This document shows, piece after piece, positions 30,069-39,237 of a DNA stretch of 64,000 nucleotides. A program made the translations under genes and the position numbers. Position 1 is the stretch's first letter. Every line of letters begins with the position of its first letter. Under the pieces are notes generated by a model that was not told the origin of the DNA, did not search any database, and worked only from the letters and a program-made list of their open reading frames with translations. This stretch comes from Longimicrobiaceae bacterium (lineage in GTDB: Bacteria; Gemmatimonadota; Gemmatimonadetes; Longimicrobiales; Longimicrobiaceae): positions 62,001-126,000 of the forward strand of contig DASVBS010000081.1 in assembly GCA_036375715.1 (NCBI GenBank), read 5' to 3'.

Positions 30069-30254
30069 CGAAACACCTCCTTGCTCGGGGGGCTCGCCAG
30101 CCTCCCGGAACTTGATTCGGCCGGCGGTTGGGTGAGGCTGGCAACGCGGTGATTTTGTCGAGGCGGGGTGACCGCTCCGCCCCGCTCGCGGAGGTTAGTG
30201 CACGGCAGCATCGCGCACATCGGCGAAATCCCCCAATTTGCAAGTGGGATCGAC

Positions 30255-30274
30255 CGTGGGTATTTCCACCCACG
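30255..30274. promoter_or_regulatory. Candidate operator dyad in the regulator leader
   Basis: Perfect 7-bp inverted repeat CGTGGGT-ATTTCC-ACCCACG, 40 bp before the regulator GTG and about 190 bp before the divergent flavoenzyme start. It may be an operator or an mRNA hairpin. Confidence 0.35.
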
Positions 30275-30313
30275 TCGCGGTGGGGAGGGCGTATCCAGCC
30301 ACCGGGAGGCGAC

Positions 30314-31948
30314 GTGACCGGATCGGACCTGCTCGAGCGTGCGCGCACCGCGTTCGCCGGCCGTCAGTGGGCGGAGGCCTTCAGTGCCCTCTCCAACGTC
30401 GATCGGGAGCGAGGGCTCGATGCGGAGGATGTGGAGCGGCTCGCCACGGCTGCCTACCTCGTCGGCAAGGAGGTCGAGAGCGAGGCGGCCTGGGCGAGGG
30501 CACACCAGGAGCGGCTACAGGCCGGAGAGCCTGCAGGCGCCGCCTCCTGCGCCCTCCGGCTGGCCTTCCTCCTCATGGAGCGCGGCGAATCCGCCCCGGC
30601 GAGCGGGTGGATCGCTCGCGCCAGCCGCATCCTCGATGAAGTCGAGGGCTGCGTGGAGCAGGGCTATCTCTTGCTACCGTCGGCGGTGCGCCACGTGTAT
30701 GAGGGCGATTATGCGCGCGCCTTCGACACGTTCGTCGCGGCGGCAGAGTTGGGTGAGCGGTTCGCGGATCCGGAGCTGGTCGCCTTTGCCCGGCACGGGC
30801 AGGGGCGCGCGCTTTTGCGGATGGGCCGGCGCGAGGAGGGGGTGGCCCTGCTCGACGAGGCCATGGCTGCGGTGGAGGCCGGGGAAGTAGGCCCGATCTT
30901 CGCCGGTGACATCTACTGCAGTGTCATCGAGGCGTGCCACGAGAGCTTCGACGTGCGGCGCGCGGCGGAGTGGACGAGCGCCCTGACCCGCTGGTGTGAG
31001 GCCCAACCCGATCTGGTTCCCTACCGTGGTCAGTGCCTGATCCGTCGCGCGGAGATCCTACGGCTGCGGGGGCAATGGGAAGACGCCGCGTCCGAGGCGA
31101 GCCGTGCGCGCGAGTGGCTGCTCAATCCACCCCCGAAGCGCGCCGTCGGGGCCGCGTACTACCAGCTCGGTGAGCTCCACCGCGTGCGCGGTGAGCAGCG
31201 TGCTGCGGAGGTCGCCTACAGGGAGGCGAGCCGGTGGGGCCGACGCCCCGAACCGGGAATGGCACTGCTTCGTCTGGAGCAGGGCGAGGTGAAGGCGGCA
31301 GCCTCGACCATTCGGGTCGCCCTCGACCAGGCGCGTGAGCCTCGCGACCGGTGCGCTTTACTGCCCGCGGCCGTCGAGATCGCGGTTGCTAACTCCGATC
31401 TCGAGACCGCGAGGCTCGCCTCCGAGGAGCTTGCGGAGATGGCGAAGGAGTTCGATACGCCTCTGCTGCACGCCCACGCCAGTCGGTCGACCGGGGCCGT
31501 ACTGATGGCCGGGGGCGATGCCATGGCCTCCCTCCCCCTCCTGCACCGATCGGTGGCCCTTTGGGAGGAGCTCGGGGCGCCTTACGAGAGCGCGCGGGCT
31601 CGGGCGCTATGCGGGCTTGCGAGCCGCGCGTTGGAGGACCACACCACCGCCGAGCTGGAGCTGGAGGCGGCGCGAGCCACCTTCCAGCGACTGGGCGCCA
31701 CTCCCGATCTCGCCTGGTTAGCCCGGCTGACGCGCAGCGAAGACCCGATGCGCGGCCGTAGGCTGACCGCCCGCGAGCTGGAGGTGCTTCGCCTGGTGGC
31801 GGCCGGCCACACCAACCGGGCCATCGCCGCCCAGCTCCATCTCAGCGAGCGCACCGTGGAGCGCCACGTAAGCAACATCTTCGCTAAGCTGGGACTTGCC
31901 AGCCGCTCGGCGGCGACGGCGTATGCCTATGAGCACCAGCTCGTTTGA
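30314..31948 (+). CDS. LuxR-type regulator with N-terminal TPR-like domain
   Basis: 544 aa. The C-terminal 65 residues are a LuxR/FixJ helix-turn-helix: 'LTARELEVLRLVAAGHTNR', 'AIAAQLHLSERTVERHVSNI', 'FAKLGLASRSAATAYAYEH'. The N-terminal ~470 residues are all-alpha with repeated 'A..L..A......' patterns like TPRs, e.g. 'ARAFDTFVAAAELGERF' and 'ASEASRAREWLL'. There is no P-loop, so it is not a full MalT/LAL protein. Start GTG 30314 has GGGAGG 4 nt upstream, far better than the in-frame ATG at 30128. Divergent from the FAD oxidoreductase, a pairing that suggests local control. Confidence 0.88.
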   Translation: MTGSDLLERARTAFAGRQWAEAFSALSNVDRERGLDAEDVERLATAAYLVGKEVESEAAWARAHQERLQAGEPAGAASCALRLAFLLMERGESAPASGWIARASRILDEVEGCVEQGYLLLPSAVRHVYEGDYARAFDTFVAAAELGERFADPELVAFARHGQGRALLRMGRREEGVALLDEAMAAVEAGEVGPIFAGDIYCSVIEACHESFDVRRAAEWTSALTRWCEAQPDLVPYRGQCLIRRAEILRLRGQWEDAASEASRAREWLLNPPPKRAVGAAYYQLGELHRVRGEQRAAEVAYREASRWGRRPEPGMALLRLEQGEVKAAASTIRVALDQAREPRDRCALLPAAVEIAVANSDLETARLASEELAEMAKEFDTPLLHAHASRSTGAVLMAGGDAMASLPLLHRSVALWEELGAPYESARARALCGLASRALEDHTTAELELEAARATFQRLGATPDLAWLARLTRSEDPMRGRRLTARELEVLRLVAAGHTNRAIAAQLHLSERTVERHVSNIFAKLGLASRSAATAYAYEHQLV

Positions 31949-32035: not shown

Positions 32036-33568
32036 TCAGCGACCGCGGAAGCGGTTCCAGTCGATCCCCAGCTTCCGCATACGCGATCGCAGCGTGTGCG
32101 GGTTGACCCCGAGGATCGCCGCCGCGCCCGACGGACCCTCGATTCGGCCGCGGGTCTCCGCCAATACCGTCTCAATGTGCCGGCGAACCGCCTCGTCGAG
32201 CGTGGCGAATCGCCGGGTCGCGGCCTCCGCGATCGGCTCGCTGCGATCCCCGGCAGGAGTGGATGTCCGGCCGGATACACCCAGCGCCGCTGCGATCTCC
32301 AGCCGATGACCTCCCCCCAGGATGGCGGCACGCTCGATCACCGCGGCCAGCTCACGCACGTTTCCCGGCCAGTTGTATTGCAGCAGCAGCTCCAGGTCCT
32401 GGGGCGTCGGGACCAGACCGGACCCACCCAGACGCTTGCCCGCTCGTTGAGCGAAGTGCTCGGCCAGTGCAGGAATGTCGCCGGGGCGATCGCGGAGCGG
32501 AGGAAGCGGAATGGGGAAGACGCTGATGCGGTACCAGAGATCCTCGCGAAAGGTGCCCTCGCGCACCATGGCGTGGAGGTCCCGGTGAGTGGCCGCCACG
32601 ATGCGCACGTCCACCGTGTGCGTCCGGCGTCCCCCCACCCGCTCGAAGGTGCCGTCCTGCAAGACGCGCAGCAGCCGCACCTGCGCATCCGGGGGTAGCT
32701 CCCCGACCTCGTCGAGGAACAGGGTCCCGCCGTCGGCGCGCTCGAACCAGCCGGCCCGGTCGGCGATGGCGCCTGTGAAGCTCCCCCGCTCGTGTCCGAA
32801 CAGTTCGGAATCAATGAGTCCGGGAGGGATGGCGCCGCAGTTCACCCGGACCACCGGCCCGGCGGCACGCGCCGAGCGACGGTGAATCTCGCGGGCAATC
32901 ACCTCCTTGCCGGTGCCCGTCTCTCCCAGGAGCAGGACCGGTACGTCGGTGGCCGCCACCTGCTCCACACGGTCCACCACATCGCGCAGACCACCCTGCG
33001 CCCCGATGATCGCCTCGGTGATCTCCTGCCGGCCCAGGCGAGTGAGCAGCGCCTGCTTGTCTGCTTCCAGCGCCTCCCGATAGCGGATCAGCTCACTGCG
33101 CTGCAGGTCCGCGCGCAGCGCCGCGGCGAGCGGCTCACGCAGCTGCCTCCACAGCTCCGCGTGTGCATTGCGAAAGGGCCCAACCGACGCCAGCGCGACG
33201 GCAAAGCCGATCACCCGATCCTCACTGAGCAGCGGCTCCACCAGCCTCTCCCCCGCGGATCCCACCGCCACCACCAGGGCCTCCAGCTCCTCCTTCCCGG
33301 GCTCCGGGGGGCTCCCTCTCCGACCCCACGCCACCAGCGCCTCCAATTGACCGGCCGAGAGCTCCGTGCGCGGAACGCGCAGCGGACGCGCCGACCCCAC
33401 CAGGCCGATCGCGACCGTGTCCAGTCGCTGCCTCTCAGGCTCCAGGCGGCGGATCACCAAAGCGCGCAACGGTAGCTCCGACGCCACCCGCTGAGCGATC
33501 CGCTCCGCCGTCTCCCCTAGCGGCCTGGAGGCGCTCGCCTCCCTCCATGCATCGAGCAGCAGCAGCAT
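32036..33568 (-). CDS. Sigma-54-dependent enhancer-binding transcriptional activator
   Basis: 510 aa. N-terminal GAF-like sensor (1-165), then an AAA+ domain: Walker A GETGTGKE (Lys221), sigma-54 contact loop GSFTGA at 262-267 (Ala to Ser variant of GAFTGA), Walker B '[12 protein letters not shown]', '[18 protein letters not shown]', '[21 protein letters not shown]'-type arginine finger region ('[20 protein letters not shown]') . The C-terminal Fis-type HTH is '[19 protein letters not shown]'. It activates sigma-54 RNA polymerase by ATP hydrolysis. ATG 33568 has GGGAGAG upstream. Its 5' flank carries four dyads, and the divergent sulfate operon has a -24/-12 element, so that operon is the likely target. 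No receiver domain; the signal is probably a small molecule. Confidence 0.93.
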
Positions 33569-33576
33569 CCGCTCTC

Positions 33577-33644
33577 CCGTGAAATATCCTGGCGTCGAGC
33601 AAGGGCCATGAAATATCCCGGAAAATATCCGCGAAATATCACGG
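33577..33644. promoter_or_regulatory. Array of four dyads (putative upstream activating sites)
   Basis: Four 16-bp elements with the shared core GAAATATC (AAAATATC in one) lie at 33577-33592, 33606-33621, 33618-33633 and 33629-33644. The best is CCGCGAAATATCACGG, which fits the dyad CCG-n-GA-n-AT-n-TC-n-CGG. Starts are spaced 29, 12 and 11 bp, so the last three lie about one helical turn apart. The array ends 74 bp before the -24/-12 promoter and abuts the activator gene, so it may also serve autoregulation. Confidence 0.7.
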
Positions 33645-33717: not shown

Positions 33718-33734
33718 CCGGCACGGCGGTTGAC
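33718..33734 (+). promoter_or_regulatory. Sigma-54 (-24/-12) promoter of the sulfate operon
   Basis: CCGGCACGGCGGTTGAC, compared with YTGGCACGRNNNTTGCW: GGCACG and TTG are present at the exact spacing. Mismatches are T to C before GG, and GA instead of GC at -12. Predicted start about 33746, leader about 88 nt to the porin ATG. The neighbouring sigma-54 activator gene strengthens the call. Confidence 0.6.
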
Positions 33735-33833
33735 TTAGCCGGTGCGTCACTCCGGCCGCCGCGAACGCTTCGGCCGGCAAGGTGGGGGACAGCCAGCCCG
33801 GGCCGCGTGCAACCCCGCTCTCCCGAGACCTCG

Positions 33834-35201
33834 ATGACAACGACGATGAATCTCATTACGGGTCCGCGCGCTCGCCACCTGCTCGCATTTGCCACGGTGA
33901 TGACGCTGGCCTCGGCCACGCCGGGGGCGGCACAGGACCGGTCTACCCTGGTTTCCCCGGCCCCCGCGCCGGAGCCGCAGCGGACCTCCGCGGCCACCGC
34001 GGACTCAGCCGCAGCTTCGGTGATCGCAACAGCGGATGAAAGTGGCTTCGGTCTGCGCTCGAGCGACGGCGCCTTCGCGCTCCAGTTCCGCGGTGGGGCG
34101 CAGTACGACGGCCGCGTCTTCCCCGACGACCCGGAGGATGCCGCCATCGATGGTTTCGAGCTCCGCCGCCTGCGTGCCGACCTGCGCGGTACCGTCTACC
34201 ACATCTACGACTTCCGCGTGAACCTGGACTACGCGGGAAATCGCGTGGAGGTGCTCGATGCCTACCTGGACGCCCGCTTCGCTCCTGCGCTCCAGATCCG
34301 GGCCGGCAAGTTCAAGGCTCCAGTGGGTCTCGAGCGACTGCAGAGCCTCTTCGCCCTGACCTTCGCTGAGCGGGGCTTTCCCACGGCGCTCGCCCCGAAC
34401 CGAGATGTCGGCATTCAGCTCTCCGGGTCTCTGGGCGGATCAATGGCTAGCTACCAGGTCGGTGTCTTCAACGGCGTCGCTGATGGGGCTAGCGGCGACC
34501 AGGACCTCTCCGACAGCAAGGACCTCGCTGCTCGGATCTTCCTGCAGCCCTTCTCCAGGTCAGGAGTCGAGGCCCTGAGCGGCCTGGGAATTGGCATCGC
34601 GGGGACCGTTGGCGAGCAGGAGGGCACAGCCGACTCACCGGGACTCGCTGCCCCGCGCACACCGCTGGGACGCCTCACCTTCCACCGCTTCCTCGGCGAT
34701 GGCACGCCCACGGGAACGGTGATCGCCGACGGCCGCCGCACGCGCCTCTCCCCGCAGGGCTACTGGTACTGGAGGAATCTCGGTGTGCTCGGGGAATACA
34801 TCCGCTCCCAGACGGAGGTAAGCCTCGAGGCACAGCAGGCGGAGGTGAGCCAGAGCGCCTGGCAACTTGCCGCTTCCTGGGTCCTGACCGGTGAGGATGC
34901 CTCCTATCGCGGGGTGATTCCGTCCCGTCCGCTGGATTTCTCCCGTGGTGGGTGGGGTGCGTGGGAAGTCGCCGGCCGCTTCCAGGCTCTCGAGACCGAT
35001 GACGACGCCTTCCCCGCCCTGGCCGATCCGCTTCGGGCCGCGCAGCGGGCGAAGAGCTTCACGCTCGGTTTCAACTGGTACCTCAACCGCAACGTCCGCT
35101 TCCTGACCAACTACGAGCGGACACGCTTCGACGCCGCCCCCGGCGGGACGCATCTGCCGACCGAGTCGGTCTTCGCGAGCCGCATCCAGGTGGCTTTCTG
35201 A
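33834..35201 (+). CDS. Outer-membrane porin, OprO/OprP (phosphate-selective) family
   Basis: 455 aa. Signal peptide '[18 protein letters not shown]'. The C-terminus ends in a beta-strand with terminal Phe (SRIQVAF), as outer-membrane barrels do. Family signature: '[22 protein letters not shown]' region, '[19 protein letters not shown]', '[17 protein letters not shown]' and '[14 protein letters not shown]'. OprO/P proteins pass phosphate or other anions; here the porin heads a sulfate ABC operon, so sulfate or thiosulfate is the likelier anion. ATG 33834 is chosen; 33846 is an alternative. The next gene starts 52 nt downstream. Confidence 0.9.
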
Positions 35202-35253
35202 TCTCGGCCGAACGGTACGCTTCAACCACGATCGACCTCACGTGGAGACTGCA

Positions 35254-36354
35254 ATGACCAGAAAACTGCACGACCTCTCTTCGCTGCTCTCGTTATCGCT
35301 GGCAGCGGTGCTCACCGGCTGCGCCTCGGAGAGCCAGGGAGCCGCCCGCGATGGAGCCGCGTCGGTGGAGATCCTCAACGTCTCCTATGATCCGACGCGC
35401 GAATTCTACGCGGAGTTCAACGCCGACTTCGCTCGCGTGTGGAAGGAGCGGACCGGCCAGACGGTAACGGTGAAGCAGTCGCACGGCGGCGCCGGCAAAC
35501 AAGCGCGCGCCGTCATCGACGGCCTCGAGGCGGACGTGGTCACGCTCGCACTGGCGTACGACATCGACGCGATCGGCAAACAGGCTGGCCTGCTGGACCC
35601 CGACTGGCAGAGCGAGCTCCCGCACGGCAGCGCGCCGTACACCTCCACCATCGTCTTCCTGGTCCGCAAGGCGAATCCCAAGCAGATCCGCGACTGGGAC
35701 GACCTCATTCGCCCCGGCATCGAAGTCATCACTCCGAACCCGAAAACCTCGGGCGGCGCGCGTTGGAACCACCTGTCGGCCTACGCCTACGCGCTGAAGA
35801 AGGAGCTCGGGGACCTGAGCCTCCTCAACGATCCGGCGCACAGCCAGGAGGTGGAGCGGGCACACCACGCCGCGCGCGAATTCATGGCCGAGCTCTACCG
35901 GCACGTGCCGGTGCTGGACACGGGCGCCCGCGGTGCCACCAACACCTTCGTGCAGCGCGGTATCGGCGACGTCCTGCTGGCGTGGGAGAACGAGGCGTTC
36001 CTGGCGGTGGAGGAACTGGGGCCGGACAAGTTCGACATCGTCGTGCCGCCGATGAGCATCCTTGCTCAGCCGCCGGTCGCGGTGGTGGACAGAAACGTCG
36101 ACGCTCACGGGACCCGCGAGGTCGCGACCGCCTACCTGGAACACCTCTACTCACCCGCCGGCCAGAGGCTCGCGGCGAAGCACTTCTACCGTCCGGTCCT
36201 GCCGGAGTACGTCGACCCCGCAGACCTGCAGCGCTTCCCCGAGCTGGAGCTGGTGACCGTCGACGAAGTTTTCGGGGGCTGGCAGAAGGCGCAAAAGGAG
36301 CACTTCGACGACGGTGGTCTGTTCGACCGGGTCTACGCACCGAGTACCGAGTGA
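35254..36354 (+). CDS. sbp: Sulfate/thiosulfate ABC transporter substrate-binding lipoprotein
   Basis: 366 aa. Lipoprotein signal '[15 protein letters not shown]'. Family blocks: '[20 protein letters not shown]', '[16 protein letters not shown]', '[16 protein letters not shown]', '[17 protein letters not shown]', 'GARGATNTF' and '[11 protein letters not shown]'. In Salmonella sulfate-binding protein, sulfate is held by Ser45, Ser130, Gly131, Gly132, Ala173 and Trp192. All correspond here except Ser45, which is Ala (SHGGAGKQ). The protein delivers the anion to CysT/CysW. Start ATG 35254 has GGAG 6 nt upstream. Confidence 0.94.
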
Positions 36355-36365
36355 GAGGCCAGTCG

Positions 36366-37208
36366 ATGAGACATATCCTGCGCAGAGAGTCGGTGTTGCC
36401 AGGCTTCGGCCTGACGCTCGGCTTCACCCTACTCTACCTGAGCCTGATCGTCCTGATCCCGCTATCCGCGCTGATCCTGAAAACGGCCACGCTGGATTGG
36501 GACGCCTTCCTGAGGGCCGTCACGGAGCCAAGGGTGATGGCCGCGTATCGCTTGAGCTTTGGAGCGTCCCTGGCGGGGGCGCTCCTGAACCTCGTTTTCG
36601 GGTCCATCGTTGCCTGGGTGCTGGTGCGCTACTCCTTCCCCGGACGACGGGTGGTGGATGCGATGGTCGACCTTCCCTTCGCGCTACCGACAGCGGTCTC
36701 CGGCATCGCACTGACCTCTATCTTCGCTACCAACGGATGGGTGGGGCCGTGGCTGGAGCCGCTCGGAGTCCGGGTTGCCTTCACCCGCCTGGGAGTGGTG
36801 GTGGCTCTGACCCTCATCGGCCTGCCCTTCGTGGTGCGCACCCTTCAGCCCGCGCTCGAGGAGCTGGAGGGAGAGCTGGAGGAGGCCGCGGCGAGTCTCG
36901 GCGCGAACCGCTGGCAAACGTTCCGGCGGGTGCTGCTCCCCGCCGTCCTACCGGCGCTGCTCACCGGGTTCTCGATGGCGTTCGCCAGGGCGCTCGGCGA
37001 GTACGGCTCAGTGATCTTCATCGCCGGCAACCTGCCGATGAAGACGGAGATCGTGCCGCTCCTCATCGTGACCAAGCTCGAGCAGTACGACTACGCGGGA
37101 GCCACGGCCATCGCCGTGGTGATGCTGCTCGCCTCCTTCGCCCTGCTGCTCGTGATCAACGGGCTGCAGTGGTTGACCCTACGCCACCAGATCGCGGGAG
37201 GGGGCTGA
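36366..37208 (+). CDS. cysT: Sulfate ABC transporter permease CysT
   Basis: 280 aa, six membrane helices. Signature loop '[21 protein letters not shown]' is the EAA motif that docks with CysA. Further family blocks: '[19 protein letters not shown]', '[23 protein letters not shown]' segment typical of CysT/CysU, and '[16 protein letters not shown]'. Forms the inner-membrane channel with CysW. ATG 36366 follows sbp by 11 nt, and the stop codon overlaps the cysW start by one nucleotide (TGATG), which implies coupling. Confidence 0.95.
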
Positions 37209-38098
37209 TGGCTGGAGGCATCGCGACCCTTTCCCACCGCACGGAGGGTGTGGCCCGCCCGGCGACCACGGAGAGCCGGGCGGTGCAGGTACTGCTGATC
37301 ACGGTCGCCCTGGGGTTCCTGGGCCTCTTCCTCTTCCTTCCGCTGCTGGCGGTCTTCGCCCAGGCGCTGCAGAGCGGCTTCGGCGTCTACCTGATGGCGA
37401 TCACCGAACCGGACGCCCGCGCCGCCGTCCGCCTCACCGTGCTGACCGCCGCGATCGCCGTACCGTTGAACACGATCTTCGGCCTGGCCGCTGCGTGGGC
37501 GATCAGCAAGTTCGAGTTCACCGGCAAGAGCCTGCTGATCACCCTCATCGACCTGCCGTTCGCGGTATCCCCGGTGATCTCGGGGTTGATCTACGTCCTG
37601 CTTTTCGGGCTGGGGGGCTGGCTCGGTCCGTGGTTGAGGGAGAACCAGATCCAGATCATCTTCGCCACGCCGGGGATCGTGCTGGCCACGATCTTCGTGA
37701 CCTTCCCGTTCGTCGCCCGCGAGCTGATCCCGCTGATGCAGTCCCAGGGGACCGAGGAGGAACAGGCCGCTCGCGTGCTCGGCGCGAGCGGGTGGCAGAC
37801 GTTTGGGAGGGTGACGCTCCCCAATATCCGTTGGGGGCTGCTTTACGGGGTGATCCTCTGCAACGCCCGAGCGATGGGAGAATTCGGCGCCGTCTCGGTG
37901 GTATCCGGCCACATCCGCGGCCGGACGAACACCATGCCGCTGCACGTGGAGATCCTCTACAACGAGTACAACTTCACCGCGGCCTTCGCGGTGGCTTCAC
38001 TCCTGGCCATGCTGGCGCTGGTCACCCTGATCGCGAAGAGCCTGGTGGAGCGGAAGCTCACCCCATCAGAACTCCATGAGCCCTTGATGCAGCCATGA
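37208..38098 (+). CDS. cysW: Sulfate ABC transporter permease CysW
   Basis: 296 aa. Six helices and the EAA loop '[22 protein letters not shown]'. Family blocks: '[20 protein letters not shown]', '[20 protein letters not shown]', '[18 protein letters not shown]' and '[14 protein letters not shown]'. Partner of CysT. Overlaps cysT by 1 nt upstream and cysA by 4 nt downstream (ATGA). Confidence 0.95.
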
Positions 38099-39237
38099 GC
38101 ATTACGGTTCGTCATATCAGCAAGTCGTTCGGACCCGTCGAGGTGCTGCGCGACGTGAGCCTCGAGGTTCCGACCGGCGAGCTGGTGTCTCTGCTCGGCC
38201 CGTCGGGCTCCGGGAAGACCACGCTGCTGCGGATCATCGCGGGGCTGGAACATCCGGACCCCGGCGGTACGATCCTCTTCCGGGACGAGGACGTGGCACG
38301 GCGCCCGGTAGCGGAGCGGCGGGTCGGCTTCGTCTTCCAGCACTACGCGCTGTTCCGCCACATGACCGTGTTCGAGAACGTGGCGTTCGGGCTGAGGGTC
38401 ATGCCCCGGCGGTTGCGGCCTTCGCGGGAGGAGATCGCGGAGCGTGTGCGGCGACTCCTGGAGCTGGTTCAACTCGACGGCTTCGCTCAGCGCTACCCGA
38501 ACCAGCTATCGGGTGGCCAGCGTCAGCGGGTCGCGCTCGCGCGGGCGCTGGCGGTCGAGCCGAAGGTCCTGCTCCTGGACGAACCCTTCGGGGCGTTGGA
38601 CGCCCGCGTGCGGGTCGAGCTGCGGCGCTGGTTGCGGCGGCTGCACGATGAGATCCATGTCACCAGCGTCTTCGTTACACACGATCAGGAGGAGGCGCTG
38701 GAAGTGGCCGACCGCGTGGTGGTGATGAACAAGGGTAGGATCGAGCAGGTGGGTTCGCCGCAGGAGGTGTACGACCGGCCCGCGACGCCGTTCGTCTACG
38801 ATTTCATGGGCACAGTGAACCGTTTCCCGGCGAGGGTCGACGCCGGGCGGGCATACATCGCACCGGGAGAGGCCGTGAATGTCCCGGCGGGGGCGGGCAC
38901 TTCCTACGGGGAGCAGATCGGCTACGCCCGCCCCCACGAGATCGAGATCTCCCGCGAATGGACCGACGGGGTAGCGATTCCCGCGCGCGTTCGCACCGTG
39001 CACAACGCCGGGCCGATGGCGCGGGTGCAGCTGGAGCGTGAGGAAGGCGGGGCGACGGTGGAGGTAGTGCTCTCCCGTGACCAGTTCGACCGCCTGGCCC
39101 TGCAGGCGAACGAGCGTGTTTACCTCACGCCGCGGCGGCTCCGGCTCTTCCCCAGCGAAGGCGGCGAGCCGCTGGAGGTCGCACCTGTGCAGGCCCTCCC
39201 GGAATCCCCTCTTCCTCTACGCCTGGAGAGGGCGTAG
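38095..39237 (+). CDS. cysA: Sulfate ABC transporter ATP-binding protein CysA
   Basis: 380 aa. Walker A '[11 protein letters not shown]', Q-loop '[20 protein letters not shown]', ABC signature '[15 protein letters not shown]', Walker B '[12 protein letters not shown]' and H-loop '[16 protein letters not shown]'. The residue block '[16 protein letters not shown]' is the CysA-specific start of the C-terminal TOBE domain (about 240-370). Powers uptake through CysTW. Last gene of the sulfate operon; a 12-bp inverted repeat follows. Confidence 0.96.

Follow-up and report, generated by a model that had tools for sequence, protein, structure and literature searches.

What does the run of AT-rich dyads at positions 33577–33644 do, situated as it is between the gene for a sigma54-dependent activator and a divergent sulfate-uptake operon in the 64 kb stretch of DNA analysed here (the window)? 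A preliminary description had read it as one motif occurring four times in 68 bp, with three of the copies 11–12 bp, or one helical turn, apart, and had assigned it to the activator encoded at 32036–33568.

The cluster is real and unusual, but it comprises three sites and not four. The sequence GAAATATC occurs on the plus strand at 33581, 33610 and 33633, exactly three copies in the array, which account for three of the five found on both strands of the window against 0.27 expected. The motif is a 16 bp dyad of about CCGTGAnATnTCACGG, for which we derive the consensus CCRTGAnATnTCAYGG across genomes, with CCAGCA as an alternative half. All three sites are given on the plus strand: site 1, proximal to the activator gene, is CCGTGAAATATCCTGG (33577–33592), site 2, in the middle, is CCATGAAATATCCCGG (33606–33621) and site 3, proximal to the promoter, is CCGCGAAATATCACGG (33629–33644), and their starts are separated by steps of 29 and 23 bp, with an outer distance of 52 bp. 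The imperfect palindrome previously proposed, CCGnGAnATnTCnCGG, fits site 3 exactly and no other position of the array, and sites 1 and 2 depart from it by one mismatch each. The genome (4.37 Mb in 87 contigs) contains no matches to CCGnGAAATATCnCGG with zero or one mismatch other than these three sites, site 2 being itself unique at that stringency. When the window was scored with a matrix built from the sites of other genomes, its own sites left out, the three ranked first to third in 64 kb (22.2, 22.2 and 19.0 for sites 1, 2 and 3), and the best score in each of 60 first-order random windows averages 12.9, the highest being 20.7.

The supposed fourth copy at 33618–33633 (plus strand), CCGGAAAATATCCGCG, derives from the 7 bp spacer AAAATAT and the adjoining edges of sites 2 and 3. 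It reads GGAAAATATCC, lacks GAAATATC and has AAAATATC in its place, and matches its own reverse complement at just 8 of 16 positions; with the same matrix it reaches a score of 4.6, 19th in rank within the window, and it is not a site by the conserved motif. Array spacers show no conservation in the other loci. As distances of 11–12 bp require this spacer to be counted as a site, the one-turn phasing vanishes with it, and we reject a four-site arrangement of that kind.

The activator gene (32036–33568, minus strand) encodes a bacterial enhancer-binding protein (bEBP) with a GAF-like N-terminus, an AAA+ domain and a Fis-type helix-turn-helix, in the order common to proteins of the NtrC, NifA, NorR and FhlA type. 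The AAA+ sigma54-interaction domain (PF00158, 1.2e-69) is present in 9 of 9 relatives, as is the C-terminal helix-turn-helix (HTH_8), for which the window protein is barely over the cut-off; the GAF model is matched by five of the nine relatives, with the window protein below the model threshold. Both the window protein and its close orthologues have GSFTGA as the sigma54-contact loop, a one-residue variant of the GAFTGA found in NtrC/NifA/NorR/FhlA-type proteins. The profile of the family matches the NifA structure 9qq6 along its entire length. The protein scores below the equivalog cut-offs for NifA (338.7 bits against 528.85), NorR (332.6 against 476) and FhlA (334.1 against 830). Its orthologues begin at the same methionine, and rpoN is present in the genome (PF04552, 1.6e-65). 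A gene encoding a LuxR-type regulator that has a TPR region (30128–31948) adjoins the activator gene in the window and was not seen next to the orthologues examined.

On the other side of the array, a plus-strand operon spanning 33807–39237 is of the sulfate type according to NCBIfam models matched over their cut-offs. Its first gene encodes a Porin_O_P-type outer-membrane porin (33807–35201; PF07396, E 3e-31), the start of which may be a later ATG, for example 33833 or 33845. This is followed by sbp for the sulfate-binding protein (35242–36354; TIGR00971 and NF008022), the ABC permease genes cysT (36399–37208; TIGR02139) and cysW (37208–38098; TIGR02140, with the frame open from 37208), and cysA for the ATPase (38095–39237; TIGR00968). 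Each region was scanned with a sigma54 matrix, TGGCACG-N4-TTGCW, whose frequencies were set from general knowledge. The best rightward match in the gap, the predicted promoter CGGCACGGCGGTTGAC at 33719–33734 (plus strand; −24 GG, −12 GA), points towards porin-sbp-cysTWA and starts 90 bp past the start of site 3; it predicts a transcription start at about 33744 and site centres at about −160, −131 and −108. Its −12 element is imperfect, with TTGAC for TTGCW, and its score is not rare on its own, as 9 of 127,970 window positions score as high.

To judge whether these elements belong together we turn to the related loci. Queries with the N-terminal domain identified the activator family in 8 of the 395 sampled genomes of the phylum, and a denser family sample supplied one further member, G468; plasmids gave no match to this domain. 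A wider orthologue scan with patterns in the shared AAA+ domain returned mostly paralogues among the matches listed, and one locus carrying cysTW (L157) was rejected because its similarity to the activator is confined to the shared domains. Sulfate-transport or porin genes adjoin the activator in the window and at five further ortholog loci, namely G033, G010 (where the porin is adjacent and the contig then ends), G027, G326 and one copy in G385, so that the suspected link to sulfur genes is borne out. At G106 and G468 a TonB-receptor gene takes the place of the porin and sulfate operon, and at G115 the array lies beside the activator with no recognisable transporter. The TonB-dependent receptor genes (L076 3964–6330 and L186 5147–7573, respectively) are next to the activator, immediately downstream of the array, and might possibly encode outer-membrane importers of a sulfur compound.

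The dyads travel with the activator across genera. We find CCGTGACATGTCACGG, CCGTGCAATGTCACGG and CCGTGACATTTCACGG at G033, CCGTGACATGTCACGG again at G115, CGGTGATATATCACGG at G326, CCGTCAAATTTCACGG and CCGTGATATGTGCTGG at G106, and CCGTGATATTTCCCGG at G468, and among the loci fetched, site pairs within 60 bp are confined to the activator orthologues and a single contig of G027, whose genome also encodes an orthologue. This co-conservation, together with the fixed distance to a sigma54-like element described below, makes it very probable that the activator encoded at 32036–33568 binds the three dyads, as had been suggested. The dyads might instead serve a different regulator, such as the nearby LuxR-type protein with its TPR region or an unlinked global regulator. 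We consider this very unlikely, since the motif accompanies the sigma54 activator while the genes flanking the activator vary among the other genomes, and no arrays are found elsewhere in the genome.

The arrangement of the dyads is also shared. Counted from the side of the activator, the sites are spaced by 29+23 bp in the window, 30+22 in the second array of G033, 31+21 in G010, 29+22 in G115 and 29+20 on contig C776 of G027, near an amt gene, giving outer distances of 52, 52, 52, 51 and 49 bp respectively; G106 and G468 have site pairs 22–23 bp apart, and at G326 site 1, the outer one, and site 2, the middle one, are degenerate and score 6.6 and 9.9. What is conserved across the loci is thus not a step of 11–12 bp but a geometry of 29–31 plus 20–23 bp, in which the outer distance is mostly 51–52 bp, close to five turns of B-DNA, and the middle site slides. 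These spacings bear on the notion that the array is a chance or structural AT-rich repeat, or a hairpin in a leader RNA, for which it may be said that the palindromes are able to form hairpins and that the sites lie in the 5' flank of the activator gene. Such an origin is extremely unlikely and strongly disfavoured: the score null is exceeded, and an RNA element would fit neither the conservation of spacing at loci whose sequences diverge nor the position of the array relative to the activator gene, which varies from 8 to more than 250 bp or is beside another gene altogether.

The array also keeps a fixed distance to the promoter. In 7 of 7 checkable loci (the window, G033, G010, G326, G115 and G106, together with G468, which was found after the rule had been noticed) a sigma54-like element starts 89–92 bp past the start of the site nearest the promoter, and in the first six it is the best or near-best match to the sigma54 matrix. 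The elements are CGGCACACCCCCTGCT in G033, CGGCACGTCGGGTGCC in G010, CGGAACGCTCCCTGCC in G115 and CGGTACGCGGCGTGCC in G106, while G326 has a perfect match, TGGCACGGGCGTTGCT, and G468, fetched only to enlarge the set, has GGGCACAGGGTGTGCC at +91. The promoters of G115 and G106 are weak, and a stronger lone match is found at +147 in G115. Summed over the six loci the sigma54 scores peak at 90 bp, a peak that independently rotated score profiles reach in 0 of 20,000 trials; omission of the perfect G326 promoter gives p = 0.0001. Dyads acting as an upstream activating sequence (UAS) are expected about 80–200 bp upstream of a −24/−12 promoter, and the 89–92 bp seen in seven loci falls within this range. 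We therefore propose, with high confidence, that the three dyads constitute the enhancer, or UAS, of a dedicated sigma54 switch for the porin-sbp-cysT-cysW-cysA operon.

There is another way in which sites bound by the activator could be used, namely chiefly as operators through which the activator gene is repressed or autoregulated, another promoter then serving the porin-sulfate operon. Site 1 starts 9 bp upstream of the activator ATG and abuts its ribosome-binding sequence, the G115 array adjoins the activator in the absence of a recognisable transporter, and a paralogue in G385 with a degenerate loop still keeps an array, all of which would suit such a role. We nevertheless regard it as unlikely, as the arrays of G106 and G468 precede the TonB receptor gene rather than the activator gene, and the fixed offset of 89–92 bp to the sigma54 element makes sense for activation only.

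Three loci show further arrangements. The paralogous activator of G385 (second copy, L075 6200–7804) has GAQTGG as its sigma54-contact loop instead of GSFTGA, a degeneration seen in this paralogue only, and keeps its own three-site array with spacings of 27+27 bp; it may now be a repressor or an inactive partner. G033 (L056) has two separate arrays within a single intergenic region, namely two sites close to the activator (2466–2502) and a complete set of three, at the promoter spacing, close to cysA (2665–2732), possibly reflecting separate autoregulation and activation. In G027 the region upstream of the activator contains no sites, and three dyads of the same motif, with steps of 20 and 29 bp, are found at the end of contig C776 (L165 75–139), directly upstream of an ammonium transporter gene (amt) and the start of glnK. 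The polarity of this array suggests a sigma54 promoter outside the contig, perhaps in the direction of cysA on contig C701. A general role in nitrogen metabolism suggested by the amt link is unsupported, as amt homologues in the family of G027 have no sites nearby.

A genome-wide motif scan had been proposed as a means to define a regulon, and none emerges. A broad form of the motif, CCRNSANATNTSNYGG, has three occurrences in the array and five others that are scattered and unclustered, eight in the genome altogether, while the strict form occurs at the array only; all five of the two-mismatch places examined are inside an open frame. Neither scan of the 4.37 Mb genome found clustered sites elsewhere. 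The outcome that would have spoken against the earlier reading, a motif dispersed at random and unconnected with sulfur genes, did not occur, as clustered sites in this genome are restricted to the array. Because the remaining broad-motif places are scattered, the switch looks local and appears confined to one operon.

In the mechanism that we envisage, dimers of the activator would occupy the three 16 bp dyads centred at about −160, −131 and −108, and the GAF-like N-terminal domain would sense the inducing condition, most likely sulfur shortage, a signal that we infer from the target genes. The AAA+ domain would then assemble and, with ATP, remodel sigma54-RNA polymerase at 33719–33734, and sulfate uptake would be switched on. 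Occupation of dyads by three dimers, an AAA+ oligomer and ATP-driven remodelling make up the standard mechanism of the class (PMC7057263), and oligomeric binding is plausible here by analogy with the activator family. As the G106 and G468 arrays precede a TonB receptor gene and not sulfate genes, the signal may not be sulfate limitation everywhere. Binding at site 1 would probably also limit synthesis of the activator itself, autorepression being suggested by the position of this site against the ribosome-binding sequence.

In general, UASs lie some 100 bp or further upstream of the promoter (PMC4641369). Like those of NtrC/NifA/NorR/FhlA-type activators, the array has multiple sites, here 16 bp dyads some 100–160 bp upstream of a −24/−12 promoter. 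The NifA site is TGT-N10-ACA, and the dyad differs both from this and from the NtrC site; the orthologues also differ from known bEBPs in their sporadic occurrence as a family next to sulfate or TonB-receptor genes. Among known systems the closest in function is SfnR of Pseudomonas, a sigma54 activator in sulfate starvation (cited in PMC8234197) that likewise serves sulfur acquisition. SfnR controls sulfone and organosulfur genes under CysB, whereas the window activator has a sensing-type domain of its own and lies beside a sulfate transporter.

In enterobacteria, CysB, a LysR-type regulator linked to sigma70, controls cysPTWA and sbp, the same kind of sulfate ABC operon as the predicted target here, whereas in the window we predict a sigma54 activator with distant dyads. 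Sulfate uptake is usually ascribed to CysB-like or other sigma70-linked regulators, and in the open-access literature searched we found no description of a sigma54 activator of cysTWA or of sigma54 control of sulfate transport; the switch is of a known type, yet apparently not described before. A broader and distinctly tentative proposal is that a GAF-type sigma54 activator family, undescribed so far, governs sulfate uptake and, in some genomes, uptake mediated by TonB receptors by means of a strict three-dyad enhancer with a five-turn outer distance and a fixed 90 bp step to the promoter, which would imply a defined oligomer-DNA assembly and not a flexible loop. Here a sigma54 activator appears to be dedicated to sulfate uptake; the rigid spacing across genera (mostly 51–52 bp between outer sites and 89–92 bp to the promoter) offers a testable model of oligomers on three dyads, and the compact motif could be used to annotate uncultured genomes.
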